This document shows, one piece after another, positions 25,295-52,062 of a stretch of DNA of 64,000 bases. Origin of the DNA: a virus; the IMG/VR virus record IMGVR_UViG_3300042869_000672, positions 1 through 64,000 of that record; one strand, written 5' to 3'. Each line of letters starts with the position of its first letter. Position 1 is the first letter of the stretch. The position numbers and the translations under genes are program-made. Below the pieces are notes generated by a model that had not been told where the DNA came from, made no database searches, and saw only the letters and a list, made by a program, of their open reading frames with translations.

Positions 25295-26158
25295 ATGAGC
25301 AAAATTAAAATCGCAGAGCTGTTTTACAGCATACAAGGTGAAGGTAGATACATGGGTGTGCCTAGTGTATTCTTACGCACATTCGGGTGTAACTTTAAAT
25401 GTGCCGGCTTCGGTATGCCTCGTGGGGAAGTAAGTCACGAAGCTACTGACATTGCGGCTACACATAAAATGATTACGCCTTTTACAAAGTATGAAGATTT
25501 ACCATTAGTTAGTACTGGATGTGACAGCTACGCTAGTTGGCATCCTGACTTTAAAGAGTTGTCGCCTATGCTTACTAGCGAAGCAATCGTAGAACGAATT
25601 ATGGAAATTATTCCGTTTGAAGAATGGCGTGATGAACATCTGGTTATCACAGGTGGCGAACCTTTGCTAGGTTGGCAACGTGCTTATCCTGATTTGTTGA
25701 ATCATCCAAAGATGGGCAAGTTAAAAGAAATTACTTTTGAAACAAATGGTACTCAGAAACTAACTCCAGAGTTTAAACAGTATCTAAAACAATGGGCACA
25801 GAATCCGCCATTTGCCTCTAGAGAAATTACATTCTCAGTAAGTGCTAAACTTCCTTGCAGTGGCGAAAAGTGGGAAGAAGCTATCCTTCCAGAAGTCGTT
25901 TGCGAGTACGAAGAAGTTGGTACAGCATATTTGAAGTTTGTTATTGCTACAGAACAAGACTTTGCTGATGCCGAGTGTGCGATTGCCGCATATCGTAAAG
26001 TAGGCTTTACAGGTCATGTATATCTAATGCCGGTAGGCGGCGTGGAAAGTGTCTACGCATTAAACAATAAGAATGTAGCATTGCTAGCAATGAAAAACGG
26101 ACTACGTTATAGTGACCGTTTACAAGTGCCGCTGTTTAAAAATGAGTGGGGTACCTAA
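25295..26158 (+). CDS. queE: 7-carboxy-7-deazaguanine synthase QueE, phage type
   Basis: 287 residues. YSIQGEGRYMG near the N-terminus and VITGGEPLL are QueE hallmarks; HVYLMPVGG is near the C-terminus. The radical SAM cysteines are unusual: Cys32 and Cys36 (CNFKC), but the third canonical position is Phe39, and a Cys at 76 (STGCDSYASW) lies after an insertion, giving CX3CX39C. I recall the same arrangement from other phage QueE proteins, so it is probably a functional variant. The enzyme makes 7-carboxy-7-deazaguanine from carboxytetrahydropterin. It ends TAATG into the next gene. Confidence 0.85.
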   Translation: MSKIKIAELFYSIQGEGRYMGVPSVFLRTFGCNFKCAGFGMPRGEVSHEATDIAATHKMITPFTKYEDLPLVSTGCDSYASWHPDFKELSPMLTSEAIVERIMEIIPFEEWRDEHLVITGGEPLLGWQRAYPDLLNHPKMGKLKEITFETNGTQKLTPEFKQYLKQWAQNPPFASREITFSVSAKLPCSGEKWEEAILPEVVCEYEEVGTAYLKFVIATEQDFADAECAIAAYRKVGFTGHVYLMPVGGVESVYALNNKNVALLAMKNGLRYSDRLQVPLFKNEWGT

Positions 26159-30475: not shown

Positions 30476-30498
30476 AACGGTTGAAACAAAAAGAATAC

Positions 30499-30528
30499 TT
30501 TTTTAGGAATTTCGAATCACCTAAAAAA
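30499..30528 (+). other. Hairpin in the gap before the radical SAM operon
   Basis: TTTTTTAGG / CCTAAAAAA (30499-30507 with 30520-30528), a 9-bp AT-rich stem with 12-base loop. There is no T run after it. May be a weak terminator or an RNA processing element. Confidence 0.35.
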
Positions 30529-30571
30529 ATTAATTGATGATATTAGTCTCACTCAATTTACGTGACCAAGT

Positions 30572-30577
30572 TATAAT
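30572..30577 (+). promoter_or_regulatory. Possible -10 box of the radical SAM operon
   Basis: TATAAT 20 bases before the ATG at 30598; no good -35 box at 16-18 bp. An unknown activator could be needed. Confidence 0.35.
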
Positions 30578-30597
30578 AAGATGAAAACAATTATCAT

Positions 30598-31932
30598 ATG
30601 AGTGAACACGAAAAATTTCAAAAAGTTATTCCAATCCTAAATGCTGTTAGTCCTAGTTTTTGTTTAGCCAAATGGTATCAACTAACATTATATCTCCAAA
30701 ACGGTTTTAACCATAGTTGCCACCATCCATCACCTCATAAGATTCCATTAGACGAGTTAGAGCAAAATCACAAGGCTCTACATAATACTAATTTTAAAAA
30801 AGAACAAATGCAAAAAATGCTCGATGGCGTTAGACCCGCCGAGTGTGACTATTGTTGGACCGCTGAAGATAACGGGCATGTAAGTGATAGAAGTTATAAA
30901 AGTGCAACATCTTGGGCCTATCCTCACATTGGCGAAGTTGTTAAAAATAAAACAGCTGATGTTGAACCTACATACGTTGAAATTAGTTTTAGCAATGTGT
31001 GTAATTTTAAATGCGCTTATTGTAGTCCAGATCTTAGTAGTCAATGGTATGAAGAAATAGACAAGCACGGTGGGTATCCTACTAGTCAAAACTTTAATGG
31101 GTTTGATTGGTTTAAACAAGTTGGAAAGATGCCTATCAAGCATAGCGATCACAATCCTTATGTCGATGCGTTTTGGAAATGGTGGCCGGAACTTTATCCT
31201 AAATTAAACACGCTAAGACTAACAGGCGGGGAACCACTGTTGAGCAAAGATGTCTGGCGTATGTTAGATGCTATAGAAGCTGATCCCAAACCAGAGTTTT
31301 GCTTTGCTATTAACACTAACTTAGGAATCCCAGACGAGTTAATTAATCGTATGATTATAAAGCTCAATAGTATTTCTAGTAAAATTAAAGAAGTACAAAT
31401 CTTTACCAGCGGAGAAGCAGTTGGCGCTCCTGCTGAATATATTAGATATGGATTAGATTATTCAGCATGGACTAAAAACTTAGAAAAAGTTTTAAATAAT
31501 ACCAATAACATTGTTGCTGTAATGACTACTGTTAATTTAACTAGCATTACAACCTATTGTAGTTTTATACGATACTTGTTAGACTTGCGTAAGCATTATA
31601 ATAAGAATGCCACATTTAATAAAGTTCAGTTTATGACTAACTTTTTACGGTATCCAGAATTTCTGTCATTACCTATTTTAGACTCTGCTAGCAAACAAAG
31701 ATTTACAAAAGAAGTAGCAAAATTAATTTTAGAAAGACCTGACTTATCAGAAAGTGAAATAGATCAGTTGCGTCGTATGATTGACTATATGAACAGCACT
31801 GATATCAAGGAATTACAATTAAGAAAAGACTTTGCATCTTTTATCACTGAATATGATATTAGACGGGGAACCAACTTTAATAAAACATTCCCTGAACTTA
31901 CAGAATTTTATCAACTATGTCAACAAATGTAA
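30598..31932 (+). CDS. Radical SAM enzyme 1 of 4
   Basis: 444 residues. The CX3CX2C motif for the SAM-binding [4Fe-4S] cluster is CNFKCAYC (Cys135, 139 and 142), and RLTGGEPLL follows at about 204. The N-terminal region has extra cysteines (SFCLAKW, SCHHP and ECDYCW) resembling a twitch/SPASM-like auxiliary cluster segment. Its closest relative is the next gene. No substrate can be inferred. It opens a translationally coupled six-gene operon. Confidence 0.85.
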   Translation: MSEHEKFQKVIPILNAVSPSFCLAKWYQLTLYLQNGFNHSCHHPSPHKIPLDELEQNHKALHNTNFKKEQMQKMLDGVRPAECDYCWTAEDNGHVSDRSYKSATSWAYPHIGEVVKNKTADVEPTYVEISFSNVCNFKCAYCSPDLSSQWYEEIDKHGGYPTSQNFNGFDWFKQVGKMPIKHSDHNPYVDAFWKWWPELYPKLNTLRLTGGEPLLSKDVWRMLDAIEADPKPEFCFAINTNLGIPDELINRMIIKLNSISSKIKEVQIFTSGEAVGAPAEYIRYGLDYSAWTKNLEKVLNNTNNIVAVMTTVNLTSITTYCSFIRYLLDLRKHYNKNATFNKVQFMTNFLRYPEFLSLPILDSASKQRFTKEVAKLILERPDLSESEIDQLRRMIDYMNSTDIKELQLRKDFASFITEYDIRRGTNFNKTFPELTEFYQLCQQM

Positions 31933-33245
31933 AACGCACAATAGAAATTATTAACGAAATAAGTCCTAGCTTTTGTGCCGCAAAGTGGTACAATGCTACT
32001 ATATGGTTAGGCAACGGACGAACAGCCAGCTGTCATTTGCCACCTGCTCATACTATACCCATAGCTGAAATCAAACGAAACCCGTCTGCTCTACACAATA
32101 CCGTCTTTAAGAAGGACCGCCGATTAGAAATGCTAATAGGTGAGCGATGTGACGAGTGCGCTTATTGCTGGACTGTTGAGGATAATGCAGCACCTGATGT
32201 ATATAGTGATCGAGTTTATAAGACTAGGATTTATGAAGAAGAAGAAATACTTCAGCTGGCTAAATTAGATCCTGGATCAGATGTTGACCCAAAAACTTTA
32301 GAGATCAGTTTTGATAATTTATGTAATTTAAGTTGTAGTTATTGTAATGCAGAGTTCAGTACTACTTGGGCTAGTGATATTAAGGTTAATGGTCCGTACA
32401 TTGAATTAAAAACATCAGGTGGTGGTGCGTTTCAAAATGCCGGGGAACATGCGTTACCTTACGGGATTAAAAATGAAAACAATCCCTACATCGAAGCGTT
32501 CTTTACATGGTTTCATGCTAGCCTTAAAAATAATTTACAAGAACTAAGAATCACCGGGGGTGAGCCTACTCGTAGTCCATCATTTTGGAAATTGTTAGAC
32601 GAATGCGAAGGTACAAATTTTGATTTTGCTGTTAACAGTAATCTTATAATGGATCAAGTAAAGTTAAATCAACTTATTAGTGCTAGTAAAAAGTTTAAGA
32701 AATTTGATCTATATACCAGCGGTGAAGGCTACGGGGCCCACGGAGAGTTTATTCGTCATGGGTTAGACTATACATTATGGCGTAACAACTTAATACAATT
32801 TGCCAAAGAAGGTCAATATAATATGATACATGTTATGATGACTATTAGTGCTCTAAGCATTTGGACCGTAACAGAGTTTATGACAGATATGTTAGAGCTA
32901 CGTAAACAATTTGGTGGCCATCAGTTCCATATGAGTCTTAATTTAGTACGCTTTCCTAGTTTTCAAAACTTAAACGTATTACCTGAACACTTAAAACAAA
33001 CACAAGCGGCCAAGATTGAAACTTGGCTAAGTAGTGTTGTTGGGCTAAGTCCTGCCGAAGCTAATCAAATAGAGAGAATAGCTGTGTATCTTCGAAACGT
33101 TGATCGTAGTCAAGAAGATACCGACAGCCAAAACAATAAGGTGCATGATTTAAAAAGTTTTACACAACAATATGCTGATAGAAAAAATATCACATTAGCT
33201 AGGGTATTCCCAACAGAATTTATAGAATGGTTTAACACAATATGA
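31917..33245 (+). CDS. Radical SAM enzyme 2 of 4
   Basis: 442 residues, paralogue of the preceding gene (same N-terminal EISPSFCAAKWYNAT pattern, ECAYCWT block and RITGGEP). CNLSCSYC gives Cys136, 140 and 143. Overlaps its upstream neighbour by 16 bases. Two diverged copies side by side suggest two successive reactions or a heterodimer. Confidence 0.85.
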   Translation: MSTNVKRTIEIINEISPSFCAAKWYNATIWLGNGRTASCHLPPAHTIPIAEIKRNPSALHNTVFKKDRRLEMLIGERCDECAYCWTVEDNAAPDVYSDRVYKTRIYEEEEILQLAKLDPGSDVDPKTLEISFDNLCNLSCSYCNAEFSTTWASDIKVNGPYIELKTSGGGAFQNAGEHALPYGIKNENNPYIEAFFTWFHASLKNNLQELRITGGEPTRSPSFWKLLDECEGTNFDFAVNSNLIMDQVKLNQLISASKKFKKFDLYTSGEGYGAHGEFIRHGLDYTLWRNNLIQFAKEGQYNMIHVMMTISALSIWTVTEFMTDMLELRKQFGGHQFHMSLNLVRFPSFQNLNVLPEHLKQTQAAKIETWLSSVVGLSPAEANQIERIAVYLRNVDRSQEDTDSQNNKVHDLKSFTQQYADRKNITLARVFPTEFIEWFNTI

Positions 33246-34456
33246 GCGAAGACAAATTTTGTATAGTGCCATGGATACATCTTAATACAGAACCTAACGG
33301 TCGTGTTAAGCCTTGTTGTGCGTATCTTGGACAAGATTTTGGAAACTTAAAAGATACTACACTAGAAGAAATATGGAATAACGAACATACTAAATCTATG
33401 CGTAGAAGCTTTTTAGAAAATAAAATTCCAGAAGGATGTCTAACCTGTACTAAAAAAGAAGACAGCGGTGGTGTAAGCTATAGAATGGCGGTTACTGAAA
33501 GATTCAGCCATCATATTGAAAAAGCTAAAAGTAACACATTGCCCGACGGTACTTATGAAACGTTTGAAATAATTTTTTGGGATTTTAGATTCAGCAATAT
33601 CTGTAACTTTAAATGTCGTATGTGCGGACATGGTAGTAGTAGTTCTTGGTTTGACGACTTTACACCTGAAGAAAAGAAAACTAAGGTAAAGTTCCTTGAC
33701 AGTGCGTATTATGGAACTAATTTAATGAAATATGTTGATCAGTTTATTGACGATGTTGAAGAAATCTATTTTGCTGGCGGTGAACCATTACTTATGGCCG
33801 AACACTATCAGATACTAGATAAGCTAATTGCCAAAGAACGATATGATGTATTTTTGCGTTACAACACCAATATGAGTACTATCAAGTATAAAGATTACGA
33901 CCTGGTTGATATCTGGAAACGATTCAAAGATGTTAGAATTTTTGCAAGTATTGACGGCATTGATGAAAATGCAGAGTACAGTAGATCTGGAACTGACTGG
34001 CCTAGAGTAGAAGAAAACTTAGTCCGTTTATCACAATCAAATGTTGATTATGTAGTATCAACTACTATAAACATTCTCACAGTTTTTAATTTTACTAAAC
34101 TAGTTGATCGACTAATAGAATTAAAAATGTCGACTAGGAAAGTACTAGTAAGTCACGTTAACTGGCCTAAGCACTATATGTCGTCAATTTTGCCCGAAGA
34201 GCTAAAAGATCAAATACGTTTACAACTGGATCAACATTTAGAAAAAATAACGCTGGCCGTAACCGAAGAAGAAAGTCGATGGTTAGCTAACCTATACAAC
34301 GAAATTAAATTTTATTTAATCTCAACAACATCAACAGAAGAAACCACGACCTTACAACAGCGATTTAAAAGAGATACTATTAAGTTAGACCGTATTAGAA
34401 AAGAAGATATAAGAACGGCTGTACCAGAATTAGCCGAATGGTTTGATACATTATGA
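33242..34456 (+). CDS. Radical SAM enzyme 3 of 4 (twitch/SPASM-like)
   Basis: 404 residues. The N-terminal FCIVPWIHLNTEPNGRVKPC is an auxiliary-cluster type segment (CxxPW.HL...G...PCC), then CLTC, then the core CNFKCRMC (Cys121, 125 and 128) and YFAGGEPLL. This is the style of the twitch-domain radical SAM proteins seen in marine phages (from memory). ATGA overlaps on both sides. Confidence 0.85.
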   Translation: MSEDKFCIVPWIHLNTEPNGRVKPCCAYLGQDFGNLKDTTLEEIWNNEHTKSMRRSFLENKIPEGCLTCTKKEDSGGVSYRMAVTERFSHHIEKAKSNTLPDGTYETFEIIFWDFRFSNICNFKCRMCGHGSSSSWFDDFTPEEKKTKVKFLDSAYYGTNLMKYVDQFIDDVEEIYFAGGEPLLMAEHYQILDKLIAKERYDVFLRYNTNMSTIKYKDYDLVDIWKRFKDVRIFASIDGIDENAEYSRSGTDWPRVEENLVRLSQSNVDYVVSTTINILTVFNFTKLVDRLIELKMSTRKVLVSHVNWPKHYMSSILPEELKDQIRLQLDQHLEKITLAVTEEESRWLANLYNEIKFYLISTTSTEETTTLQQRFKRDTIKLDRIRKEDIRTAVPELAEWFDTL

Positions 34457-35661
34457 GTGATAAATTTATTTGTGATTTTCCCTGGATTCATTTAAGTGTG
34501 TTTCCACAGGGCAACTGTACTGTATGCTGTGTGGCTAAACATTCGGGTAAGGGCAACGGACATAGTTGGAACAGAGTCAGTGAGGATAAAACTAAAACTA
34601 TAACAGTTATGAATAGTTCTATACCAGAGATTGTTAACTGCGATAATTATAAAACTATTAGACTAGATATGTTAGCAGGCAAGGTACCGACTGCATGTGA
34701 GGGGTGCCATCAAATTGAACAGGCTGGTGGAAAAAGTAAACGACAGCAAGAAACTACTCGAAATTTAGATCATGCGGCATTGACCTCAGTTGACGGTTCT
34801 ATCAAGACAGATCTTCGTCACATTGAATTACGATTAGGAAATTTTTGTAATTTAAAATGTCGAAGCTGTAACGCAGACTCTAGTACAAGCTGGATTCAAG
34901 ATTACTATAAATTAAAAGATACAGTCAAGTTAGCTAGTGGTTATCATTGGATTAAAAGTAATCCTGATTTTAGTTTTGATTGGGTAGACGATGAATCTTT
35001 TTACAACAGATTAACAGAATTTGCTCCTAATCTAGAACAAATACATATAAGTGGTGGCGAACCATTCCTTGTACCTACTCACTTTAAACTATTAGAAAAA
35101 TTAGTGCGAGATGGTAAAACAGATATCGCTATTCACTACCATACAAATTTAAATTATAAATGGGATAAAATTACTCCAGCATTGGATCTATTGACTAAAT
35201 TTAAAGAAGTACATATTAGTTTCAGCATTGATGATGTTGGAGAGCGCAACACTTATATTAGAAGTTTAAGCGATTGGGATTTAACCATTAGTAACTTAAA
35301 ATTATTTTTAAATAATTACAAATTCATTTATCGTGTAACTCAAACTGTCAGCGTCTATAATTTTATGTATGTTGAAGAATTAGAAAGGTATTTAGCCAAC
35401 AATAAAATACGTATTAGAGTAGGTTTAAATCATGTTCAGAGCCCAGACTACTTATCAGCTAATATATTATCTAAACAAATGCGACAAGATAAAATTAATT
35501 CACTATACGGTATTATTGATCGACGCAATTGGGAAGATCTTTATGGCCATTACTATACTCCAAAAGACAACGGACAGTGGGAATACTTTAAATATTTTAC
35601 AGAAAAAATTGATACTGTGCGTAACGAAGATTTAAATAGTATTTTTCCAAAACTAGCATGA
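34453..35661 (+). CDS. Radical SAM enzyme 4 of 4 (twitch/SPASM-like)
   Basis: 402 residues, paralogue of the third gene. CDFPWIHLSVFPQGNCTVCC opens it, CEGC follows, then CNLKCRSC (Cys132, 136 and 139) and HISGGEPFL. ATGA overlaps on both sides. The base composition here is clearly more AT-rich than in the replication genes. Confidence 0.85.
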   Translation: MSDKFICDFPWIHLSVFPQGNCTVCCVAKHSGKGNGHSWNRVSEDKTKTITVMNSSIPEIVNCDNYKTIRLDMLAGKVPTACEGCHQIEQAGGKSKRQQETTRNLDHAALTSVDGSIKTDLRHIELRLGNFCNLKCRSCNADSSTSWIQDYYKLKDTVKLASGYHWIKSNPDFSFDWVDDESFYNRLTEFAPNLEQIHISGGEPFLVPTHFKLLEKLVRDGKTDIAIHYHTNLNYKWDKITPALDLLTKFKEVHISFSIDDVGERNTYIRSLSDWDLTISNLKLFLNNYKFIYRVTQTVSVYNFMYVEELERYLANNKIRIRVGLNHVQSPDYLSANILSKQMRQDKINSLYGIIDRRNWEDLYGHYYTPKDNGQWEYFKYFTEKIDTVRNEDLNSIFPKLA

Positions 35662-36458
35662 AATTTATTTTTTTAAAATCGGGCGACTATTTAGAATTAG
35701 AACCCAACAACACTCCTATAGCATCTGTTTGGTTTGAAAGCATTTTTTCTAAAAAAATGAATATGAGTTATTTTGCTAGAGATACTTCGTTTATAACTCG
35801 TTCTAACGAGACTATTAATAATCTAAATACTGCAATTGATATAGTTAATAAGTTTGCTGTAGAAAAAAATCTACCTCAAATCATGTTTGATAAAATTGTT
35901 GGTATTGATCAACAATGGCTCAATGCGTCACATAAAAAATGGGTATTGCACACTGACAGATTAAAGAATATAGTTAATGGCGACGATACAAAACAAAACT
36001 ATCCCGGCTTTGTGAAATCTTGGCAAAATATCAATTTATACATTCATTCTTTAGAATATTATTATTCTGTTTATTTTACTAATACAAAAGGAGCATATTT
36101 AGAAAATATTGATATTAAAATACAGCCGGAAGATTGCGAATACTCACAACACGATCTAATTTTAAGATTTGACGATTTAGGAAAACATCAGTATGACCAA
36201 TGGATTACTGGAAGCGCAGTTGATGAAGAAACTAGCAATTACAAAACAATTTCGGCTAGATTTGAATATGCATTTAATCCGCAATTAAATAAAGGAATTC
36301 TTCCTAATCCAGCATATATAGAGTGGTGTAATCAAAATAATTTACAAGTTATGCCACCGTGGATTATTTTAGGAAACTTTAAAAAGAATAAATGGGAAAT
36401 TAAACAACTCATACATCAAAATTTATCTCGAGGATTAGAAGTAGGATTTGAATTATGA
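35658..36458 (+). CDS. Unknown protein of the radical SAM operon
   Basis: 266 residues, no signal peptide or membrane segment, rich in Asn, Tyr and Trp. Blocks such as MFDKIVGIDQQWLNASHKKW and LHTDRLKNIVNGDD are not recognised. Coupled by ATGA on both sides, so probably part of the same pathway; it could be the substrate-binding or a partner protein. Confidence 0.55.
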   Translation: MKFIFLKSGDYLELEPNNTPIASVWFESIFSKKMNMSYFARDTSFITRSNETINNLNTAIDIVNKFAVEKNLPQIMFDKIVGIDQQWLNASHKKWVLHTDRLKNIVNGDDTKQNYPGFVKSWQNINLYIHSLEYYYSVYFTNTKGAYLENIDIKIQPEDCEYSQHDLILRFDDLGKHQYDQWITGSAVDEETSNYKTISARFEYAFNPQLNKGILPNPAYIEWCNQNNLQVMPPWIILGNFKKNKWEIKQLIHQNLSRGLEVGFEL

Positions 36459-37318
36459 AAATTTATGTAAATGGAGATAGTTTTACTGCTGGCGACGGAT
36501 TGTCTGATCCAGAAGTTTTTCCAGATTTGTATCCAGGGCATCATTCTTGCGACATAGAATTTGACGTAGCATGGTGTAATAAAAGGCATGCAATGCTAGA
36601 TAAAAATCTTGATTTACACAATCACTGGCAAATTAATAATAAGAAATATGTGTGGTCTACAATATTAGGAGAGCTAGTTAATACTATGTTAGTTAATGAC
36701 AGCGTTACTGTAGTTAATGGTGCCATTGGCGGATCATGTATGACAGGCATATCAACTAGAACTATTGCCTATCTTGAATCATTAAGAAGTCGAGCAGACT
36801 TGCCAGATCATGTTTTCATAGGCTTAACAAGCATTGGAAGATTAGGTTGGTATCACGAAGATACACAAGATATTGGTAAAATTTTTAATTGGGTTAAATC
36901 GACTATTCCAGGATTTCATTATCGAGGACATGAAAGTAAACATAAAAAATTGTTTGAAACTATTTGGACAACACTCAGTGATGAAGAACTGCTTATTAAT
37001 TATCTAAAAGAATGTTTACAAATTAAAAATTATGTCAAGAGAAGAATTGGACGAGATCCTATTTTCTTAAACACTGTGGGTGAATTTTGGCAATACAAAG
37101 AAATAGTCAATAACTCTAAAAATCAATGGCTTCGAATGCTTTGGTTTGATTTATTAGAATTTGATAAGATTAACAATCGATGGTTCAATAAAGGAGCGTT
37201 TGAACAAATGACTGCGTGTGGACACGTACTTCCGCCTGGTCATGCTGAATATGCTAGAGATTTAGCAAGAGAACATTTTGGATGGGGTAAAAATCCGGAT
37301 GATAGGGATGCCAATTAA
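36455..37318 (+). CDS. SGNH-like hydrolase of the radical SAM operon
   Basis: 287 residues. NGDSFTAGDG (residues 6-15) holds the GDSF motif, GAIGGSCMTG is the Gly block, and PPGHAEYARD near the C-terminus could carry the catalytic His. The third SGNH-like gene in the window. It ends the rightward transcription; the convergent gene starts its stop 18 bases later. Confidence 0.65.
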   Translation: MKIYVNGDSFTAGDGLSDPEVFPDLYPGHHSCDIEFDVAWCNKRHAMLDKNLDLHNHWQINNKKYVWSTILGELVNTMLVNDSVTVVNGAIGGSCMTGISTRTIAYLESLRSRADLPDHVFIGLTSIGRLGWYHEDTQDIGKIFNWVKSTIPGFHYRGHESKHKKLFETIWTTLSDEELLINYLKECLQIKNYVKRRIGRDPIFLNTVGEFWQYKEIVNNSKNQWLRMLWFDLLEFDKINNRWFNKGAFEQMTACGHVLPPGHAEYARDLAREHFGWGKNPDDRDAN

Positions 37319-37335
37319 GTATCTAGTATAGATTA

Positions 37336-39321
37336 TTATTTTTTTACTAAGGATTGAAATGTATTAAATTGCTTTTGCAACCATTCAAAATCGTTAATTT
37401 TTCTTAACTGATCGGCATCAGCAATATTCAATAATCCGTACTGTTTTCCAGCTCGAGCTCCTGCTATACTATATTCTCCATAAAGTTTATCAGATCCAAT
37501 ACTACACCAAGTAATTAATCGATCTTCAGTTTCTTCTTGATATCCAGAATCAACAGGACGGCTGGCTAATTTTACACACTCTCTAAACGCAGATTTCCAA
37601 GTATTAAACGGATCGGTATTAAAAACTGTTAGATTACTAACTTCTTTTATAACTTTAAATTTTTTGCTTATTGCCATAGTCATGTCAACACTAGACATGT
37701 CCATATTAATAGTTAAGTTTTTAGGCAATAATTTAACACCGCCATAGCCGTATGTTAATCCGTTGATAGGATTTTTGCTTAACCAAACATGAACAATATC
37801 TGTATCGTGTTTAGGTAGTAGTAGGTCAAATTGAAAATCATCTTCTATTATTGCATCACCGTCTACTACCCAAAACATTGGAGTTGTTGCTAATTTTGCG
37901 GCTGCAATGTGTGCTTGGTGAATACCTTTTACGCCGTGTACACGTTTGGCTCTCGGAAATTGATCAATTAATTTAGCAAAATTTTCATCTGCATTAGGTT
38001 CGTTATAAGATATAAACACAATATCGTATAATTTTAATTTACTTGCCACAAGGTCATATTCTTTTTTTTCAATCAAATATCTATATTCAACTTCTCTTGC
38101 AGAAATAAGTCTTTTCTTCGATAATAACATTATACCGTTGTACTTAATTTCTTCAACATCAATATTTTTAAAGACGTGATTTATACTAAGCTCATACTTA
38201 TTTTGGTATGGAAATTGAAGATCAAATTTAAAATCTGGCGCAGGTTCAACTTCCGGAGGAATCGCCCAAAACATATCTGTATCAGCTGTGTTAAGAGCAT
38301 GTTCGTAATCACTAAACGTATCGATTACAAATTTGTCGTACGGTTTATATTTGCTGGCCACTAGATCGTGTTCTTTTTTATCTATAAAAAATCTATGTTC
38401 AATCTCTTTCTTAGATACTGGCTTATTTGTAGAAAATAACACAACACCGTTAACGAACGATTCCTGATCGTTAGATATATTTTTAAACACGTGATTTTCG
38501 TTTCGATCATAGGAATTATGGTGACTAAAATAAGTTTCAAAAATTTGATCATTAATTATTTCAATATTTGGCCATACTCCCCAAAACATTGTTAAAGGTG
38601 AATTTTCTAATGCAGATCGATATTCTTCATAATTGTTAATAATAAAAATAGGATATGTTTTAGGTTTACTAGCTACTATATCAATTTCTTTTTTGTTAAC
38701 ATAAAATCTATGATCAAATTCTTTTTTACTAATTTCTTTGTATTTTGAAAACAACGCTATTCCGTCAAAAAATTCTCCGTTTTTAAATACATGAGTTATG
38801 TTTCGATGAAATGCATCGTATGTTGGAACATAATAATCAAAAAGAAAATTTTCGGCTACAACAACATCATCCCATACTGCCCAGAACATCGCTGTTGAAG
38901 ATTGCTCTTTTGCATTTAAATAATCGTTGTATGTTTTTATATTATGAATTTCAAATTTCTTAGGAGTTGATGCAATTACATCCATCTCCTTTTTGTTCAT
39001 AAAAAATCTATGATCAAATTCTTTTTGTGTAGTATTGGCTGTTTTAGGAAATAGATTTATTCCGTCAAATGTTGTTCCGTTTAACCAAACGTGGGTATAT
39101 TCTTCGTCCCACTTAGATACTCTGTATTCAAAATTAAAATCGTCAGCTACAACAACATCATCCCATACGACCCAAAAGAATTTTGTAAATGCTTTCTTTT
39201 TAATGTCATCGAACGATTTTACATTATCAATTTTTTGAGAAGATGGAAATTTAGAACGAAATTGTTTCCAATTTTGTTCATCAATAATATTTTTACTTAC
39301 ATAAAAAATATCATAGACCAT
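37336..39321 (-). CDS. Multi-repeat protein ending in a GT-A-like domain
   Basis: 661 residues. A unit of about 100 residues is repeated: FFWVVWDDVVVADDF (about 47), MFWAVWDDVVVAENF (about 147), MFWGVWPNIEI (about 245), MFWAIPPEVEPAPDF (about 350), then MFWVVDGDAIIEDDF (about 482). Units 1-4 also share EFDHRF and NKKE.D..AS segments. The last part (about 420-640) matches the GT-A-like neighbour at 39311 (RVHGVKG, then the DGD metal motif). The earlier units look like copies of the glycosyltransferase core without the DxD acid pattern. Probably a binding or scaffolding glycan-related protein. Confidence 0.75.
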   Translation of the reverse strand: MVYDIFYVSKNIIDEQNWKQFRSKFPSSQKIDNVKSFDDIKKKAFTKFFWVVWDDVVVADDFNFEYRVSKWDEEYTHVWLNGTTFDGINLFPKTANTTQKEFDHRFFMNKKEMDVIASTPKKFEIHNIKTYNDYLNAKEQSSTAMFWAVWDDVVVAENFLFDYYVPTYDAFHRNITHVFKNGEFFDGIALFSKYKEISKKEFDHRFYVNKKEIDIVASKPKTYPIFIINNYEEYRSALENSPLTMFWGVWPNIEIINDQIFETYFSHHNSYDRNENHVFKNISNDQESFVNGVVLFSTNKPVSKKEIEHRFFIDKKEHDLVASKYKPYDKFVIDTFSDYEHALNTADTDMFWAIPPEVEPAPDFKFDLQFPYQNKYELSINHVFKNIDVEEIKYNGIMLLSKKRLISAREVEYRYLIEKKEYDLVASKLKLYDIVFISYNEPNADENFAKLIDQFPRAKRVHGVKGIHQAHIAAAKLATTPMFWVVDGDAIIEDDFQFDLLLPKHDTDIVHVWLSKNPINGLTYGYGGVKLLPKNLTINMDMSSVDMTMAISKKFKVIKEVSNLTVFNTDPFNTWKSAFRECVKLASRPVDSGYQEETEDRLITWCSIGSDKLYGEYSIAGARAGKQYGLLNIADADQLRKINDFEWLQKQFNTFQSLVKK

Positions 39322-40222
39322 CAGTGGTCCTCATATATGTATTTGTTAATTTAATAGTTTCTTCGTACAAATCTAAAGTATATTTGCTCTGTTGACTATC
39401 TAGATAGGGATAATCAAAACCTAGTTCTAATTTAATTTTTTCACCTAATGATTTAATTTCATCATCTAGACCATCACCGCCTACTTCTTCAAATGGGCGG
39501 CCATATTGATTCCAAATACCTTTAAGGATTTCAAAGTCTCGAACCTCTACATAATTCCAGTCGGTACAGTTTGCTAACCAAGTGCCTAATCTAGCACCAT
39601 ATATAGCATAAAGTCCGTTTTCTTCATGAGCACCAACTGTTGACCACATACGTAATCTATGCAAATTGTGCCACCAAACACGTTCGCTAATCTCTTGTGG
39701 TGACACTTTAACTCCATCGAGTAAGGTCATTTTAACGCCTTCACGAAATCCTGCTCTCCATGCTTGAAAAGGACTTCCGGTAATATCAGTATCACTATAA
39801 CATTCTTTAAATTGACGATACCCATCTTCCCAACAAAAGTCTACTTGAGCGCGATCGCTTTCACTAGCTTCATGGGTTTTCATATTGAGAATAAAATCTC
39901 GTTTCCATATTTTAAGCCCGCCATTACCGTAGAGTAAGCCATTAAGTTTGTTTTTTCCTAGCCAACTATATACCTGTATCTTAGGATTACTTGTATCGAT
40001 GTCTAGATTAAAAAATTTAGGATTAACTATATTATCAGCGTCAACCGTAATAACCCATTCAGTTTCACTTAACTCAGCTGCTGCCTTATGTGCAGCATCA
40101 CTACCCTTCACCCCGTGAACTCGTTTAGCCCAAGGAAGTTTATTACATAAATCAGCATAATGCTTATCTGCATTGGGTTCGTCATAACTTAAAAATACAA
40201 TGTCAAGTTCTATTGTTTTCAT
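39311..40222 (-). CDS. GT-A-like glycosyltransferase
   Basis: 303 residues. VDADNIVNP (about 57) is a DxD-type metal and sugar-nucleotide motif, and the preceding RVHGVKGSDAAHKAA segment is shared with the C-terminal part of the multi-repeat protein. LLYGNGGLKIW follows. The overlap with the next gene is 11 bases. It may add sugars to virion proteins or host surface. Confidence 0.65.
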   Translation of the reverse strand: MKTIELDIVFLSYDEPNADKHYADLCNKLPWAKRVHGVKGSDAAHKAAAELSETEWVITVDADNIVNPKFFNLDIDTSNPKIQVYSWLGKNKLNGLLYGNGGLKIWKRDFILNMKTHEASESDRAQVDFCWEDGYRQFKECYSDTDITGSPFQAWRAGFREGVKMTLLDGVKVSPQEISERVWWHNLHRLRMWSTVGAHEENGLYAIYGARLGTWLANCTDWNYVEVRDFEILKGIWNQYGRPFEEVGGDGLDDEIKSLGEKIKLELGFDYPYLDSQQSKYTLDLYEETIKLTNTYMRTTDGL

Positions 40223-40812
40223 ATTGTTTCAAATATATATTTGTCAAAAATTCGCCTTGTATAAACACTAAATCTATTTGGCAAATCTAATGTAAATAAT
40301 TTTGTATTTTCTGTAATGTCGCCTGCCCTAATGCTTAACATATGAAGGAGGACATTGGGGTCGTTGTAATCAGTTACTAAAAAAATCATTTCAGTTGCAC
40401 CGTCCCAAATAATATTATTTGAGTATTTGTCGCTCATTGAAAATATTAATGTACTATTTTTTGTATCATGTGAAATTGTGATATCAGGATCTTGCATATT
40501 TGACCACTTTTTATCTATTATTCTATGCAAGATGTCATCGATCTTTATTAGACTATGGGTGGAAAATTTGTTTAATTTAACTAATTTCTTAGTTGGTAAA
40601 TCAACCCTATAAGAAAATAGATTTTCCTCTCCTGTAGAAACTGCTGTGGCAATTTCTTCATCAATTTTTATATTATTTGTATTATCAAATACCGCATGAG
40701 AAGGATATATTCCAATTAAAGATCCGTCATCTTTAAATGTTGCATAGTATTCGACGGTTTGATTGACTGGTAATTTAATCCACTCGTCAAAGTCCATTAA
40801 TTCTTGTTCCAT
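40219..40812 (-). CDS. Hypothetical protein
   Basis: 197 residues; many beta strands predicted and no clear motif (EYYATFKDDGSLIGIYPSHA). Overlaps both neighbouring glycosyltransferase-like genes. It may be a virion-associated or assembly protein; not recognised. Confidence 0.5.
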   Translation of the reverse strand: MEQELMDFDEWIKLPVNQTVEYYATFKDDGSLIGIYPSHAVFDNTNNIKIDEEIATAVSTGEENLFSYRVDLPTKKLVKLNKFSTHSLIKIDDILHRIIDKKWSNMQDPDITISHDTKNSTLIFSMSDKYSNNIIWDGATEMIFLVTDYNDPNVLLHMLSIRAGDITENTKLFTLDLPNRFSVYTRRIFDKYIFETI

Positions 40813-41639
40813 GCAATCTCCTCTAACATACTAACTATTTCGTCATTAACTAGATCTTTTTCAACATAATGCACAATATTATATTGCTGATAATTTCCAA
40901 TTTTTAAATTTCCCTGTGTATTAAAATAAAAACCTGCATGTTCAGTGACCCTTTCGGCAGTCCAGGGCCAATTTTGAATCATCGGTTTCATATGTACTAT
41001 ATTAGGAAACGCTAAATCATAACTTATAATATCACTTATATCTAAAATCTTTGCGCTTAGAGCGAATGCTTCATCTGTTCCAACAACTTTTGGTTTATGT
41101 TTAGTAAGATATAAATTACTAAACTCTAAAGGGTTTTTTATAATATATCTACCTAAATTGAAAAATTCTGTTGCAAGCTCGGATCCTTGTTTAAAAAAAG
41201 TAAACATGGAATATAAATTAGGAAGATTGTTTTTTGTAAATGTTTTTCTATAAAAATCATTTATGATTGTTTCACCTCTATAGGTTAAGGCCTTTGGAGG
41301 AATGTATAATTCACAATTTTCAATAAAGTAATCAATCCAATGGCTATGATCCCTAAGAAAAAGCATGTCTGCATCAAGGCATACTGTATTTTCAAAAGGA
41401 GATAGTTGATCCATCCAGCTACGGCCATCCCAATGTGTTTCTTTATCCCAGGTAATTACATGATCAAAAACCCAAGGACTTTTTAAATTATTAACTAGCT
41501 GAGGTTTATCGATTACTAAAGCAACTTTATTGTATCCTGGTTTCTGAGTATTTTTAATACTTAATGCAAGAGCATAGGCCAGTTTAAGATAGTCTATATT
41601 ATCATTCGAAGCAACAAAAATTAAGTAACCAAAGTTCAT
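40797..41639 (-). CDS. GT8-like glycosyltransferase
   Basis: 280 residues. VCLDADMLFLRD (about 90-101) contains the DxD motif of GT-A enzymes. KLAYALALSIK near the start fits the nucleotide-binding beginning of GT8-type proteins, and NIVHY near the end resembles the C-terminal His motif. Overlaps its neighbours. Confidence 0.7.
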   Translation of the reverse strand: MNFGYLIFVASNDNIDYLKLAYALALSIKNTQKPGYNKVALVIDKPQLVNNLKSPWVFDHVITWDKETHWDGRSWMDQLSPFENTVCLDADMLFLRDHSHWIDYFIENCELYIPPKALTYRGETIINDFYRKTFTKNNLPNLYSMFTFFKQGSELATEFFNLGRYIIKNPLEFSNLYLTKHKPKVVGTDEAFALSAKILDISDIISYDLAFPNIVHMKPMIQNWPWTAERVTEHAGFYFNTQGNLKIGNYQQYNIVHYVEKDLVNDEIVSMLEEIAWNKN

Positions 41640-42496
41640 ATTAACTCCAGTAGTTTTTCTTTATTTCTAATAATACTTTGTTTGTTCATAACGTGAACAT
41701 CAGAACCTTGTGTAGTTGCAGCCCAAAAATCTCCGCAATTAAGTGGTTTGTCAATTAGGAACGTTAGCCGATCTCCATTTACATCATGTAAAATATCTTT
41801 ATCAAATACTGTTAGAATAGGAGGTAATGTATAAACAAACTCAGTTTCAAACCCGTTCATGATATGTTTGGCAACGCTAAATGAAATGTCGTTTCGATAT
41901 TGCCTTGGGTCAAATCTAAATAGGTCGGCATAATATCTATAATTGTCTTTAATATAATCAACTAATTTAAAAAAGAATCTACTTTCTTCGTTTTTAGTAA
42001 ACATTACAGTAGTGGCCCAAAACATATGAACTCCGGTTTCACTTACACGTTGATCTAATATACCGCTGCGGTCACCTGTTATATCATTCATAGAATGTCC
42101 TAACATCACACTACTATCTGTGTTCCAGTACTCATTTAGTTTGTTAGAAAAGATTAAATAATCACTGTCAACTAACAGGGTTTGATCGTAAGGACTTAAA
42201 TCCCAAACTGAAAATCTATTTGAATTTACAAAAGGAATTGTCTGGCTGTAAAAACCATCATGAAGTTTTCTTGTATTTTTTGTTCTAGGCTTTTCAATTT
42301 CAATAATCTTATCAAAAATAGATTCGGCTCTAGCATACATCTCTGATTCTTTTAACCAAGCAATTGTCCATTTGTCTGTTATTAAACTAACTGGTAATCC
42401 CAAATGTTTTTTTGCTAGGCCGCCAGAAATTATACCCATTACACCATAATCTACTTCTGGGCCATTATGAGCAAAAATTAATACGCCTTTAGTCAT
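41636..42496 (-). CDS. GT-A-like glycosyltransferase
   Basis: 286 residues. LLVDSDYLIF (about 107-116) is a DxD-type motif. ILIFAHNGPEVDYGV opens the protein and DVHVMNKQSI closes it. It is distantly like the preceding GT8-like gene. Coupled to the gene upstream by an ATGA-type overlap. Confidence 0.65.
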   Translation of the reverse strand: MTKGVLIFAHNGPEVDYGVMGIISGGLAKKHLGLPVSLITDKWTIAWLKESEMYARAESIFDKIIEIEKPRTKNTRKLHDGFYSQTIPFVNSNRFSVWDLSPYDQTLLVDSDYLIFSNKLNEYWNTDSSVMLGHSMNDITGDRSGILDQRVSETGVHMFWATTVMFTKNEESRFFFKLVDYIKDNYRYYADLFRFDPRQYRNDISFSVAKHIMNGFETEFVYTLPPILTVFDKDILHDVNGDRLTFLIDKPLNCGDFWAATTQGSDVHVMNKQSIIRNKEKLLELI

Positions 42497-43821: not shown

Positions 43822-45576
43822 TTATAATACCAATGCTTCAACTAGTTTGCGATCTAGGTCTGTGTTTGATTCTAATGCAATAGCAAACACATCGTTGTCC
43901 TGCGGTTCGGCTGCCACGGCATTGCCATTATTTGCAGCTACAAGACGTTGACCTTTTTTCACTGCTCCTGTAACATACACAGGCACACGCCCTTTGAGAG
44001 CAATATATGTTCCGCCTTCAAGATCTTTGTTCATCATAAATCCAGGATTGGCCGATACCACTCCTACAGCTCGGTCGCCATACTGTGCAGCGGTGACTTC
44101 TTTGTCTCCGCCTACTGCTACCACTGTGCCTACTTCATATTCTTTATCTGCTAGATATTTTTCAGCAAGATCTGCATATTGCGCTGCGGTTGCTGTGCCG
44201 TCGAAGGTATTGGCCAATAAATTTCCTGAACCATCTCTAGCTGCAATTGTGTTGGCTGTTTTTGTAGTCTTAGCAGACCTGTAATCGGGATCTGTGTCTA
44301 CTGCTGCATCATTTATCCTAGTTCTATCTGATTTATCTACAACCCCAATAAATCTAGTAGCAGTAATATTACCACTGCCATCTCTCAAAGCCACAGAAGT
44401 TGCCACTGCGCCAAGTTCTCCAACTAGACTGTTCAAAGTCAAAGCGTTGGTGGCTGTACCTGTGACTGAACCTATCACGTTGCCTGTGAGTGTTCCCGAG
44501 AAGCTGCCTGAGAATATTTTTGTAACCGCGGTATAGGCCACAGAATTGTCGTCAGCAAGTATATTACCTTTGTGTACACCTGTGGTATTTCCGGTTACAT
44601 TACCAGTTAACGCACCTGTAAATGTGGTTGAATGCACGTTGGCCCATTTGGAAACAGCAGAACCAAGAGTAAAGAAATTGTCTGTACCTGGAATCATGCC
44701 GGTTGCGGTTATAATGCCAACATTGCGAAGATCACTATCCGATACTCTTATTCTCAAGGTTATAGTGTTGCCTAATCTGTTTTCAATAATAGGTTCATCG
44801 CCGTTTTCAACACGGATTCTTAAATCATTTTGATCGCCTACTGTAAGACCGGCATCGGCGAAAGCAATTGCATTGGTAAAGGATACCTCACCCAGTCTAA
44901 CATATTCACTAGCAGGAAAGCCGCCTAATCTCAACGCATTACTTGCTGATCCCCAGAAATAATGATCTGTGGTTGTTACTCCGGTAGTTCCGTTAGTGTT
45001 AACTAAGTTGACACCTTTTTTGATCACCGAAAATCCTGTTATAGGATTTAAAACGCTGTTTAAGGTAAATGCATCTTTGCTGACGATTGATATTACATCA
45101 CCGCCAGATTGAAATTTTACTATGGTATGATTGTTGTTGAGAGTGTCTTTGACTACCTGTGCTTGTACTGCTGATGCACCTAGATCTGGCAAGGTTTCAG
45201 GGCCAATTAATACAAATTCAGTGCCAGTATAGGCATACAGTTGTTCGGCTCCGGTATCAAACCAAAAATCTCCGGCCTGCAATCCGCTAGGAGGAGTAGG
45301 TCCTATCTCTGCGCCGCTGGCTGTTCTAAATTTTGTGCCGTCGTAAAATCGTAGTTTTTTTAGGCCACTGTCATACCAAATTTGACCAGTTACTCTTTTT
45401 GGAGGGGCTGATGTATTGGCAAAGTTTTCCAGCAAATGTAGGAAATTCTCGTTCTGTACTTCGCCGTAGCCAGCGTAATTTTTACCTACAAAACGCAAAT
45501 CAGTGGTGGTATCAATGGTACCGTCGTCGACAGAGACTAAGAACGTTCCATTAAATTTGTCTACTTGATATGCCAT
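43822..45576 (-). CDS. Tail fibre protein, paralogue 4
   Basis: 584 residues. Begins with the shared head module (MAYQVDKFNGTFLVSVDDGT, YAGYGEVQNENFLHLLENFA, GQIWYD). Middle: repeated Thr/Gly/Asn strands (GNVTGNTTGVHKGN). C-terminal domain: ATAAQYADLAEKYLADKEYE and GRVPVYVTGAVKKGQ, shared with paralogue 3. An SD (GGAG) and a late promoter precede it. Host-binding fibre. Confidence 0.85.
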   Translation of the reverse strand: MAYQVDKFNGTFLVSVDDGTIDTTTDLRFVGKNYAGYGEVQNENFLHLLENFANTSAPPKRVTGQIWYDSGLKKLRFYDGTKFRTASGAEIGPTPPSGLQAGDFWFDTGAEQLYAYTGTEFVLIGPETLPDLGASAVQAQVVKDTLNNNHTIVKFQSGGDVISIVSKDAFTLNSVLNPITGFSVIKKGVNLVNTNGTTGVTTTDHYFWGSASNALRLGGFPASEYVRLGEVSFTNAIAFADAGLTVGDQNDLRIRVENGDEPIIENRLGNTITLRIRVSDSDLRNVGIITATGMIPGTDNFFTLGSAVSKWANVHSTTFTGALTGNVTGNTTGVHKGNILADDNSVAYTAVTKIFSGSFSGTLTGNVIGSVTGTATNALTLNSLVGELGAVATSVALRDGSGNITATRFIGVVDKSDRTRINDAAVDTDPDYRSAKTTKTANTIAARDGSGNLLANTFDGTATAAQYADLAEKYLADKEYEVGTVVAVGGDKEVTAAQYGDRAVGVVSANPGFMMNKDLEGGTYIALKGRVPVYVTGAVKKGQRLVAANNGNAVAAEPQDNDVFAIALESNTDLDRKLVEALVL

Positions 45577-45598
45577 TGATCAACTCCGTTGTAACTAT

Positions 45599-45606
45599 TA
45601 TTTATC
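45599..45606 (-). promoter_or_regulatory. T4-type late promoter (GATAAATA)
   Basis: Minus-strand GATAAATA, leader about 17 bases with GGAG before the ATG at 45576. Confidence 0.6.
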
Positions 45607-45620
45607 GTAAATACACCCAT

Positions 45621-47438
45621 TTAAACTCTGCCCACTGCTACTTCTATAACACCACTTACACCATCAAAATCAACTAGAGCTTTACCTATAATTGTACCTA
45701 TTTGAGGATTAATTGCTTTTCTAGCATATCCTTCGCCTGCACTCATTAGCATATCACCTTTAGATATTTTACCGCGGACCTTACAAGGGGCTCTACCCTG
45801 TAATGCAATGGCAACTACATAGTTACCACTACATTCGCTGTTCATTAGGTATGCAGGATCTGTTGAGACAATACCCGCTAGTCTATTTGTGCCGTCTTCT
45901 GCTAGAGTTACTTCAAACTCACCACCAAATTCAAGTACTGTACCTGGCTCATAATCTTGATCTGCTACATATTTTTCAGCAAGATCTGCGTATTGTGCAG
46001 CAGTGGCTGTACCTACAAAAAAGTTGGCATGCACGTTGTTCCATTTTGCAGTGGATATTCCTAGATCGGTAGTAGCAGTATTTACTGGGATCATAGCTGG
46101 AGCATTGAGTCCCCCTAACGCCAATGCGGTAGCTGCATTTACCATAGAGATTGCAGCCGTACTTGACGGTTGCGTTGGATCAAGAATTGTGAAATGTATT
46201 CCAGAATTACGTGAATGTAATGTTGGTATTGTGGATGCGTCTAAATATATTCTCAAAGGCGCCACACTGGTGCTAGGTCCTCCGAGTGTAATGCCGGTTG
46301 CGCCAGCGACATCTAGAGAAGATAGAGTTCCTACATTAGTAAGGTCGGAATCTACTATGTTGGTTGCCAATTGAGTGCCAGTCAATGTGTTGCCGTCTGC
46401 AGGTACTGTGATATTTGCACTACCGTCAAACAGTACTGTGTTGATTGTTCTTGCTGTTTGTAATTTTGTAGCTGTGAATGCATTACCGGATAAAGTGGCC
46501 CCTATAAATTCGTTGGCTGATACTATGTTAAAAGTACTAGTTCCACTGGCAGTGGTCACGTTACCTGAGACATTGCCAAGTAGATTAGCAGTGATTGTTC
46601 CTGCTGAAAAATCTCCGGCACTATCTCTAGCCACAATTTTACCTATGACATTACTGGGGCTAGCATCCACACTCCAAGTAGTGGCTGTTGATCCATTAAA
46701 ATTTGCACCTGTAAGATACGTGCCTCTTGATAATGTGTTTGTGGTGTTGGATGTTATGGTTATGTCTGTTTGGCCATCGAAATACACCCCGTTAATGAGT
46801 CTACCAGGATTCAATTTACTGGCAGATTCTGCATTTCCCACCAGTGAGCCTATTACTGGCCTAGCTGTTGAGATATTGGTTCCTGCCTGCAGGATTGAAA
46901 ATCCAGGTATAGCGTTGGCATCATCAATGGTAAAGGCATCATCGACACATACCGCCAACACTGTGCCATCTACTACCACCTTGATAGCTGCATGTTCAGT
47001 GCCATTGCTATCCATAATTTTTTCAGCTAGAACTTTGGTTGTATCAAAACCTTCAATAGCTTCAGGTCCTATCAATTTCCAAAATCCAGAATCATATACA
47101 AAAAGTTGATCTGTGATATCTTTGTACCAAATGCCGCCGTCGAATCCTTCTGGTTCAGTGTCACTAATAACAGCAGATCCCACAGGAGTCCAGGCTGTAC
47201 CATTATAAACATTCAGTGCGCCAACATCGGTGTTATACCATGTTTGTCCTGTGATTGGTCTAGACGGTGGATTTTCATTGGCAAAATTTTCAAGCAAAAA
47301 CAAAAAATTTTCATTTTGTGTTTCACCATAGCCAGTGTAGTTTCTGCCAAGCAATCCTAGACTGGTTGAGGTATCTAGTGTGCCATCTTCTAGCACTACT
47401 AATTGCTGACCGCTAAATCTGTTTATGATATATGCCAT
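45621..47438 (-). CDS. Tail fibre protein, paralogue 3
   Basis: 605 residues. Shared head module at 1-125 (GRNYTGYGETQNENFLFLLE, GQTWYN). Beta-rich Thr/Ser/Gly middle. C-terminal domain with ATAAQYADLAEKYVADQDYE, GIVSTDPAYLMN and GRAPCKVRGKISKGD, also present in paralogue 4. The head module likely anchors the fibre to the baseplate. GGAG upstream. Confidence 0.85.
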   Translation of the reverse strand: MAYIINRFSGQQLVVLEDGTLDTSTSLGLLGRNYTGYGETQNENFLFLLENFANENPPSRPITGQTWYNTDVGALNVYNGTAWTPVGSAVISDTEPEGFDGGIWYKDITDQLFVYDSGFWKLIGPEAIEGFDTTKVLAEKIMDSNGTEHAAIKVVVDGTVLAVCVDDAFTIDDANAIPGFSILQAGTNISTARPVIGSLVGNAESASKLNPGRLINGVYFDGQTDITITSNTTNTLSRGTYLTGANFNGSTATTWSVDASPSNVIGKIVARDSAGDFSAGTITANLLGNVSGNVTTASGTSTFNIVSANEFIGATLSGNAFTATKLQTARTINTVLFDGSANITVPADGNTLTGTQLATNIVDSDLTNVGTLSSLDVAGATGITLGGPSTSVAPLRIYLDASTIPTLHSRNSGIHFTILDPTQPSSTAAISMVNAATALALGGLNAPAMIPVNTATTDLGISTAKWNNVHANFFVGTATAAQYADLAEKYVADQDYEPGTVLEFGGEFEVTLAEDGTNRLAGIVSTDPAYLMNSECSGNYVVAIALQGRAPCKVRGKISKGDMLMSAGEGYARKAINPQIGTIIGKALVDFDGVSGVIEVAVGRV

Positions 47439-47464
47439 TTATCGCTCCGTTACATATTTAACCA

Positions 47465-49303: not shown

Positions 49304-49314
49304 TTGTTTTTACC

Positions 49315-51387: not shown

Positions 51388-51389
51388 TT

Positions 51390-52054: not shown

Positions 52055-52062
52055 TATTTATT
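52055..52062 (-). promoter_or_regulatory. T4-type late promoter (AATAAATA)
   Basis: Minus-strand AATAAATACTACT followed at once by the ATG at 52049. By T4 numbering, the ATG would be at +1. It overlaps the end of the giant gene. Confidence 0.6.

Follow-up and report, generated by a model that had tools for sequence, protein, structure and literature searches.

The DNA analysed here, referred to as the window, is the first 64,000 bases of the IMG/VR virus record IMGVR_UViG_3300042869_000672, a record of 187,679 bases from a large, T4-like virus of aquatic origin. Our subject is a set of four consecutive genes for radical S-adenosylmethionine (SAM) enzymes, r1 to r4, which occupy positions 30598-35661 of the forward strand and form a six-gene block with the two genes that follow them. 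The genes and features at this locus are as follows.

30476-30597, no strand: gap 5' of the operon; a terminator-like hairpin (TTTTTTAGG...CCTAAAAAA) and a TATAATA-like box are seen by eye
30598-31932, + strand: r1, N-terminal-twitch radical SAM enzyme of 444 amino acids (aa); NF033640, 344.5 bits
31917-33245, + strand: r2, N-terminal-twitch radical SAM enzyme of 442 aa, paralogue of r1; NF033640, 272.9 bits
33242-34456, + strand: r3, N-terminal-twitch radical SAM enzyme of 404 aa; NF033640, 382.7 bits
34453-35661, + strand: r4, N-terminal-twitch radical SAM enzyme of 402 aa, paralogue of r3; NF033640, 326.3 bits
35658-36458, + strand: g5, member of a radical-SAM-associated family, 266 aa, function not assigned; 4-nt overlap with r4, hhalign
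36455-37318, + strand: SGNH/GDSL-hydrolase-like protein of 287 aa; motifs read from the sequence, weak hhalign matches
37336-39321, - strand: gA, 661 aa, with domain(s) homologous to gB; hhalign
39311-40222, - strand: gB, predicted GT-A-fold glycosyltransferase, constant neighbour of r1 in relatives; AlphaFold2 and Foldseek
43822-52049, - strand: tail-fibre and virion structural genes (host-recognition module); PHROGs
52058-63973, - strand: giant virion structural or baseplate-related protein of 3971 aa; PHROGs

The genes of the block overlap one another, by 16, 4 and 4 nt at the r1/r2, r2/r3 and r3/r4 junctions and by 4 nt both between r4 and g5 and between g5 and the SGNH-like gene, in agreement with the coupled operon proposed in a preliminary description of this DNA. 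Its only intergenic gap, at 30476-30597, holds no precursor-like open reading frame (ORF) of more than 18 codons, which bears out the earlier statement that no short gene resembling the precursor of a ribosomally synthesised and post-translationally modified peptide (RiPP) is present. The T4-type late promoter TATAAATA matches once in the window, below the chance expectation, and not at r1.

Four diverged members of one radical SAM family

All four proteins match the hidden Markov model (HMM) NF033640 (N_Twi_rSAM) over nearly its full length and above its curated cut-off of 170 bits, and they are its only matches in the whole virus record. Identity reaches 37.1% between r1 and r2 and 30.8% between r3 and r4, as against 21-24% between the pairs, so the two paralogue pairs described earlier are real. 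The CX3CX2C motif is intact in each protein, beginning at C135 (r1), C136 (r2), C121 (r3) and C132 (r4), and is kept in 143 of 143 representative homologues; a GGEP motif is also present in all four.

Additional cysteines, which the preliminary description had taken to suggest auxiliary clusters, lie at N-terminal positions 22, 41, 83 and 86 in r1, 20, 39, 81 and 84 in r2 (which also has C78), 7, 25-26, 66 and 69 in r3, and 7, 25-26, 82 and 85 in r4. This four-cysteine pattern has the spacing of a twitch domain in every case, and the four positions are invariant across 51 r1-type sequences. The Pfam SPASM model matches the N-terminus of r3 and r4 (residues 7-70 of r3), r3 also matches Pfam Radical_SAM, and a profile built on sequences of the r3/r4 type hits BtrN in its C-terminal twitch domain (E=0.0012), which places the twitch region at the opposite end from that of BtrN. 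Judged by these cysteines r1-r4 fall within the SPASM/twitch subfamily, and their binding of auxiliary clusters is predicted from sequence. HMM searches of r1-r4 recognised no substrate-binding domain besides the twitch.

The AlphaFold2 model of r1 has a mean predicted local distance difference test (pLDDT) score of 95.7, and its top Foldseek matches are radical SAM enzymes. The nearest is the RiPP maturase SkfB, and none extends over the full length (TMq at most 0.36). The radical SAM barrel is structurally similar to those of viperin, QueE, MoaA and NifB. Identity with viperin was rejected, as r1-r4 score only 16.9-26.1 bits against the 180-bit cut-off of NF038283, and so was identity with MoaA, for which the scores are far under the cut-off.

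The ratio of nonsynonymous to synonymous substitution rates (dN/dS) of r1-r4 relative to close relatives is 0.018-0.077 where it could be calculated (0.05-0.08 for r1), two comparisons with a more distant relative being saturated. The four genes are thus under strong purifying selection, and the observation is not due to chance. From family membership, motifs and selection we infer that r1-r4 are all working radical SAM enzymes, each predicted to carry one auxiliary cluster.

Conservation and inversion of the block in phages

Scans of IMG/VR with r1 and r3 yielded 102 loci. All six genes occur in order in 15 contigs, some of them probably from one viral population, and the conserved six-gene order looked for in the preliminary description thus holds in close relatives. 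That description had also named scattering of the four genes as a point against a system, and here the result is divided: r1-r2-r3-r4 keep their order at about 50-55% identity in five loci (L028, L029, L033, L040 and L057), interrupted by extra genes or duplicated radical SAM genes, whereas in other distant relatives r1 or r1-r2 persists and r3/r4 are swapped, lost or multiplied. Members of the r2 clade occur at 22 loci in phages that carry r1, and a phage locus has between 1 and 10 radical SAM genes.

The six-gene block is inverted relative to both of its flanks when the window and L018 are compared with L096 and L098, in which a 101-102-aa gene and gA border the block in the reverse arrangement. 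The block is co-directional with replication-side genes in the window and with tail-fibre genes in these two relatives. We found only imperfect inverted repeats, which do not bracket the block, and no long ones at its borders; programmed inversion of the cassette was therefore rejected, and we read the inversion as historical.

Searches of r1 and g5 against 50,697 catalogued phage records gave no match. Contigs of this phage type have been binned with several phyla.

Neighbouring genes in phages

g5 is distantly related (hhalign probability 90.6, E=1.3e-6) to a family encoded one to three genes away from arrays of radical SAM genes in five other, distant phages, and it is therefore probably part of the same system. 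The protein encoded at 36455-37318 has N-terminal GDSFTAG and GGS...GLTSIGR motifs, no Pfam match, and weak hhalign matches (probability 72-77) to GDS-motif proteins of other radical SAM loci. Searches for solved-structure relatives of this protein and of g5 returned none that was convincing, and HMM searches for a RiPP recognition element (RRE) in r1-r4, g5 and the SGNH-like protein found no match.

Beyond the block lie gA and gB, then a run of tail-fibre and virion genes, and then the giant virion/baseplate protein. HMM searches assigned gB to no family. Its AlphaFold2 model (pLDDT 91.5) has glycosyltransferases as its leading Foldseek matches (probability 0.96-1.00), headed by the fucosyltransferase WrtF (probability 1.00, TM-score about 0.35) and followed by the S-glycosyltransferases SunS and ThuS, and D61 and D63 of its DxD motif are invariant. 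By predicted fold and DxD motif gB is a GT-A glycosyltransferase, whose donor and acceptor cannot be read from TM-scores this low. gA is homologous to gB (hhalign probability 100, E=1.6e-49). It contains several degenerate tandem copies of the gB-related block, seen in the sequence as repeated WDDVVV-type blocks, and with dN/dS of 0.14-0.29 it is the fastest-evolving of the compared genes in two of three relatives.

In 48 of 88 phage contigs gA/gB are at most three genes away from r1; all 48 have them on the strand of r1, nearly always upstream. Genes for glycan-type or related enzymes occur within 10 genes of a radical SAM gene in 27 of the 88, a count made without a control region; they include nucleoside diphosphate (NDP)-sugar epimerase, dTDP-4-dehydrorhamnose 3,5-epimerase, UDP-glucose dehydrogenase, Glyco_transf_7 and methyltransferase genes, among others. 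Five phage contigs encode S74-domain proteins at a distance of six to ten genes from a radical SAM gene. The Bdellovibrionota PqqD HMM matched no gene of the phage loci.

In the window, four ORFs of 43822-52049 have PHROGs matches to tail fibre, tail collar and virion structural proteins, and 51390-52049 matches phrog_11259 (unknown function). The giant protein at 52058-63973 matches phrog_10938 (virion structural, 822 bits) and phrog_438 (baseplate wedge). The tandem paralogues gD/gE (window positions 40797-42496; hhalign probability 99.8) are kept after the tail fibres across many phages.

Homologues on bacterial chromosomes

With an r1/r2 alignment as query, 77 loci were recovered from 84,980 species genomes, almost all of them in metagenome-assembled genomes (MAGs) of Bdellovibrionota and some on contigs of 0.6-3.3 Mb. 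Matches to NF033640 above the cut-off were present in 27 of 94 genomes sampled from across the Bdellovibrionota. The figure was 2 of 299 for Pseudomonadota, including the genome that served as seed, and 1 of 147 for the order to which a Pelagibacterales MAG belongs, the single positive being that seed MAG, possibly a binned phage contig; 14 named control genomes had none. One genome holds 33 matches, of which about 14 fall in 30 kb. In another, eight radical SAM genes, r1-, r2-, r3- and r4-like ones included, stand in a row beside genes identified as obg and rpmA by a Pfam GTP1_OBG match in a relative and by visual inspection. In the r1/r2 tree phage and bacterial sequences are intermixed, with 11 changes between them, which means that transfer has taken place repeatedly; some contigs of the tree were called phage-like from their neighbours and MAG name only.

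Several further features of these chromosomes were observed. About 14 N_Twi radical SAM genes crowd 30 kb of a Bdellovibrionota chromosome (L184-L185; G003:C1:738000-777999), along with two aspartyl/asparaginyl hydroxylases and an amidinotransferase-like gene. Amidinotransferase-like genes adjoin N_Twi radical SAM genes at L196:11318-12406, L199:14089-15177 and L185:11167-12243, and the L196 protein has the inosamine-phosphate amidinotransferase StrB as its best solved match (E=3.7e-49); with such a gene in only three chromosomal loci, we do not claim an aminocyclitol pathway. In many chromosomal loci a protein family of roughly 320 aa, marked by a DLDLT-like motif and matched by no Pfam model, is encoded near r1-type genes (for example L127:12743-13705 and L108:11402-12379). 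The motif occurs in 17 Bdellovibrionota loci, with 11 copies within two genes of r1-type genes.

The r1-type chromosomal genes adjoin genes for GT4 and GT2 glycosyltransferases, an ABC-2 exporter with its ATPase, a DegT aminotransferase and a carbamoyltransferase. For a balanced comparison, 100 neighbours were set against 100 genes taken from control regions placed at even intervals along four of the genomes that supplied the neighbours; GT2 accounted for 7 neighbours and at most 1 control gene, a modest enrichment. A far sharper test was co-localisation in 19 genomes in which 1.57% of the sequence lies within 10 kb of an above-cut-off NF033640 gene; these genomes were selected for holding r1-type genes, and position within the genome is still informative. 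Within that distance lay 11 of 17 PqqD/RRE genes (0.27 expected), 9 of 54 ABC2_membrane genes (0.85 expected) and 5 of 9 genes for short S74 proteins, as against none of 36 for long S74 fibre proteins.

The short S74 proteins have 142-173 aa and a near-invariant N-terminus, FGGI-EFNLEEIE-E-LNDSVYLDVFAG, directly before SDxxxK, the motif shown to mediate self-cleavage of S74 fibres in Bdellovibrio (PMC10769870). The leader (FGGIxEFNLEEIExExLNDSVYLDVFAG, then SDxxxK) was observed in the Bdellovibrionota loci L165:9968-12198, L171, L176, L178, L195 and L199, one to four genes from radical SAM genes. These loci commonly add a PqqD-like RRE, a peptidase with an SxSMxP-like motif (S24/S26-type, by eye) and ABC exporters. 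In sequence the short S74 proteins resemble leader proteins from which a peptide of some 40 residues would be freed, and the S74/radical SAM/PqqD loci are possibly an undescribed RiPP-like cluster with a self-cleaving carrier.

Relation to known systems

The preliminary description had proposed an undescribed system with no known pathway. HMMs give r1-r4 a family, NF033640, which they match end to end, and no pathway. The novelty stands in part: the family has a curated model and similar cassettes are on record (PMC7029224, PMC5332604), but no chemistry or function is on record for them. What distinguishes the present case within a family of no assigned function is the presence of four diverged members in an ordered block with a GT-A neighbour.

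Pelagimyophages have a host recognition cluster, and in this tail-fibre island of T4-like aquatic phages both radical SAM cassettes and glycosyltransferases have been noted (PMC7029224). The window cassette has a location of this type, in a tail-fibre island with glycosyltransferases that adjoins baseplate genes, and the likeness extends to the hypervariability of the island. The main text of that study does not resolve the enzymes, their order, the cassette inversion or the cellular homologues. The T4-like marine genome TARA_ERS488813_N000010 likewise carries many radical SAM genes, 12 in all (PMC5332604); they were treated there as Fe-S metabolism. KVP40-like Vibrio phages, also T4-like, have up to three genes related to r3, but distantly (22-26% identity). 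BtrN, a twitch-type 2-deoxy-scyllo-inosamine dehydrogenase, and the SPASM maturases SkfB and SuiB share the barrel and an auxiliary cluster domain, but differ from r1-r4, whose twitch is N-terminal and for which there is no full-length structural match. Of the marks of a RiPP biosynthetic cluster, neither a precursor in cis, looked for in the only intergenic gap, nor an RRE/PqqD, looked for with HMMs, was found in the phage; RRE/PqqD is found only in the clusters of the chromosomal homologues.

Possible functions of the cassette

The closest chromosomal relatives of r1-r4 are almost confined to predatory Bdellovibrio-type bacteria, and the cassette therefore probably decorates a surface structure used for cell recognition or entry. 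We tentatively favour, while giving it somewhat less than an even chance, a multi-step radical tailoring of a surface glycoconjugate linked to the tail fibres. In addition to the radical-SAM [4Fe-4S] cluster, each of r1-r4 would bind one auxiliary cluster by means of its N-terminal twitch domain, which is circularly permuted. Each would generate a 5'-deoxyadenosyl radical and perform a different oxidation, epimerisation or deoxygenation driven by hydrogen abstraction; the presence of four enzymes, diverged yet kept in order, suggests as many distinct reactions on a single product and not a dosage effect. One after another they would modify a glycoconjugate assembled by means of the neighbouring GT-A glycosyltransferase(s). 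This glycoconjugate would most likely decorate the phage receptor-binding apparatus or the host surface glycan, and the SGNH-like enzyme may add or remove acyl groups. What we observed are the genes with their motifs, conservation and selection, the GT-A neighbour, the location in the island and the chromosomal context of the homologues; the clusters, reactions, step order and substrate are inferred. Glycoconjugate tailoring is supported by the family, cysteines and strong purifying selection of r1-r4, by the tail-fibre, baseplate, GT-A and sugar-gene neighbours in phages, by the GT4, GT2, DegT, ABC-2 exporter and carbamoyltransferase neighbours on chromosomes, and by the BtrN-like twitch, since BtrN is a cyclitol dehydrogenase. 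Several observations weigh against it. The block itself contains no NDP-sugar gene, the phage count of glycan-type enzymes lacks its control, the GT2 test is small, and among the weak matches in the PDB are both sugar enzymes and the peptide maturases SkfB and SuiB; the strong PqqD/RRE co-localisation of the chromosomal homologues, moreover, points to peptide substrates.

That last result leads to a substantial, if doubtful, possibility: that r1-r4 mature a peptide or protein, introducing C-C or thioether links, epimerised residues or oxidations into tail-fibre or other virion proteins in the manner of RiPP or sulfatase maturases. No short precursor would be needed, as the fibre itself would be the substrate. 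The tail fibres adjoining the cassette, the S74-domain proteins near phage radical SAM genes, the short chromosomal S74 proteins with their invariant leader ending YLDVFAG and the structural proximity of r1 to SkfB all fit such a role. The phage loci, however, show neither RRE nor precursor in the PqqD HMM search and in the ORFs of the gaps, sugar-nucleotide and glycosyltransferase genes recur in them instead, and the HMMs recognised nothing past the twitch that would bind a substrate. A glycosylated fibre protein would satisfy both sets of evidence. It is improbable that the enzymes serve auxiliary metabolism by making a cofactor or a modified nucleotide, in the way of QueE or viperin, that aids replication or blocks rival phages. 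The likeness of the barrel to those of viperin, QueE, MoaA and NifB would allow it, as would a QueE-like radical SAM gene in the same window, but scores against the viperin and MoaA models fall well short of the cut-offs, and the radical SAM genes, of which a locus has 1 to 10, are accompanied by tail-fibre and glycosyltransferase genes instead of nucleotide genes. The QueE-like gene (25295-26158), unrelated to r1-r4 and apart from the cassette, itself suggests 7-deazaguanine chemistry in the phage. Least probable is that the genes merely hitch-hike in a known hypervariable island (PMC7029224) with no selected function in this phage; inversion of the block between lineages and variable copy number would suit this, but it is largely refuted by the selection test (dN/dS of 0.02-0.08 on r1-r4 where calculable), and the CX3CX2C motif, intact in every representative homologue, also speaks against it.

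A broader conjecture, which we consider rather unlikely, is that the N-terminal-twitch enzymes represent a fibre- or adhesin-maturation chemistry exchanged between aquatic T4-like phages and predatory Bdellovibrionota. It would be a never-described peptide or glycopeptide modification that equips the recognition structures of both; the bacterial version would also comprise an RRE, an exporter and an S74 leader protein that cleaves itself.

Our search of the open-licence literature found no paper linking these radical SAM cassettes to Bdellovibrionota. New here are that link, with its PqqD/S74 clusters, the resolved anatomy of the cassette, its GT-A neighbour, the association of g5 and the inversion. 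Radical SAM genes recur in aquatic phage islands without a known substrate. The family's concentration in these phages and in Bdellovibrionota makes the question testable in cultured Bdellovibrionota, and its neighbours are now defined on both sides, a GT-A glycosyltransferase and tail fibres in the phage and PqqD, exporter and S74 genes on the chromosome. Should radical modification of fibres or surface glycans be borne out, a new kind of tailoring chemistry would be common to recognition by phages and by predators.

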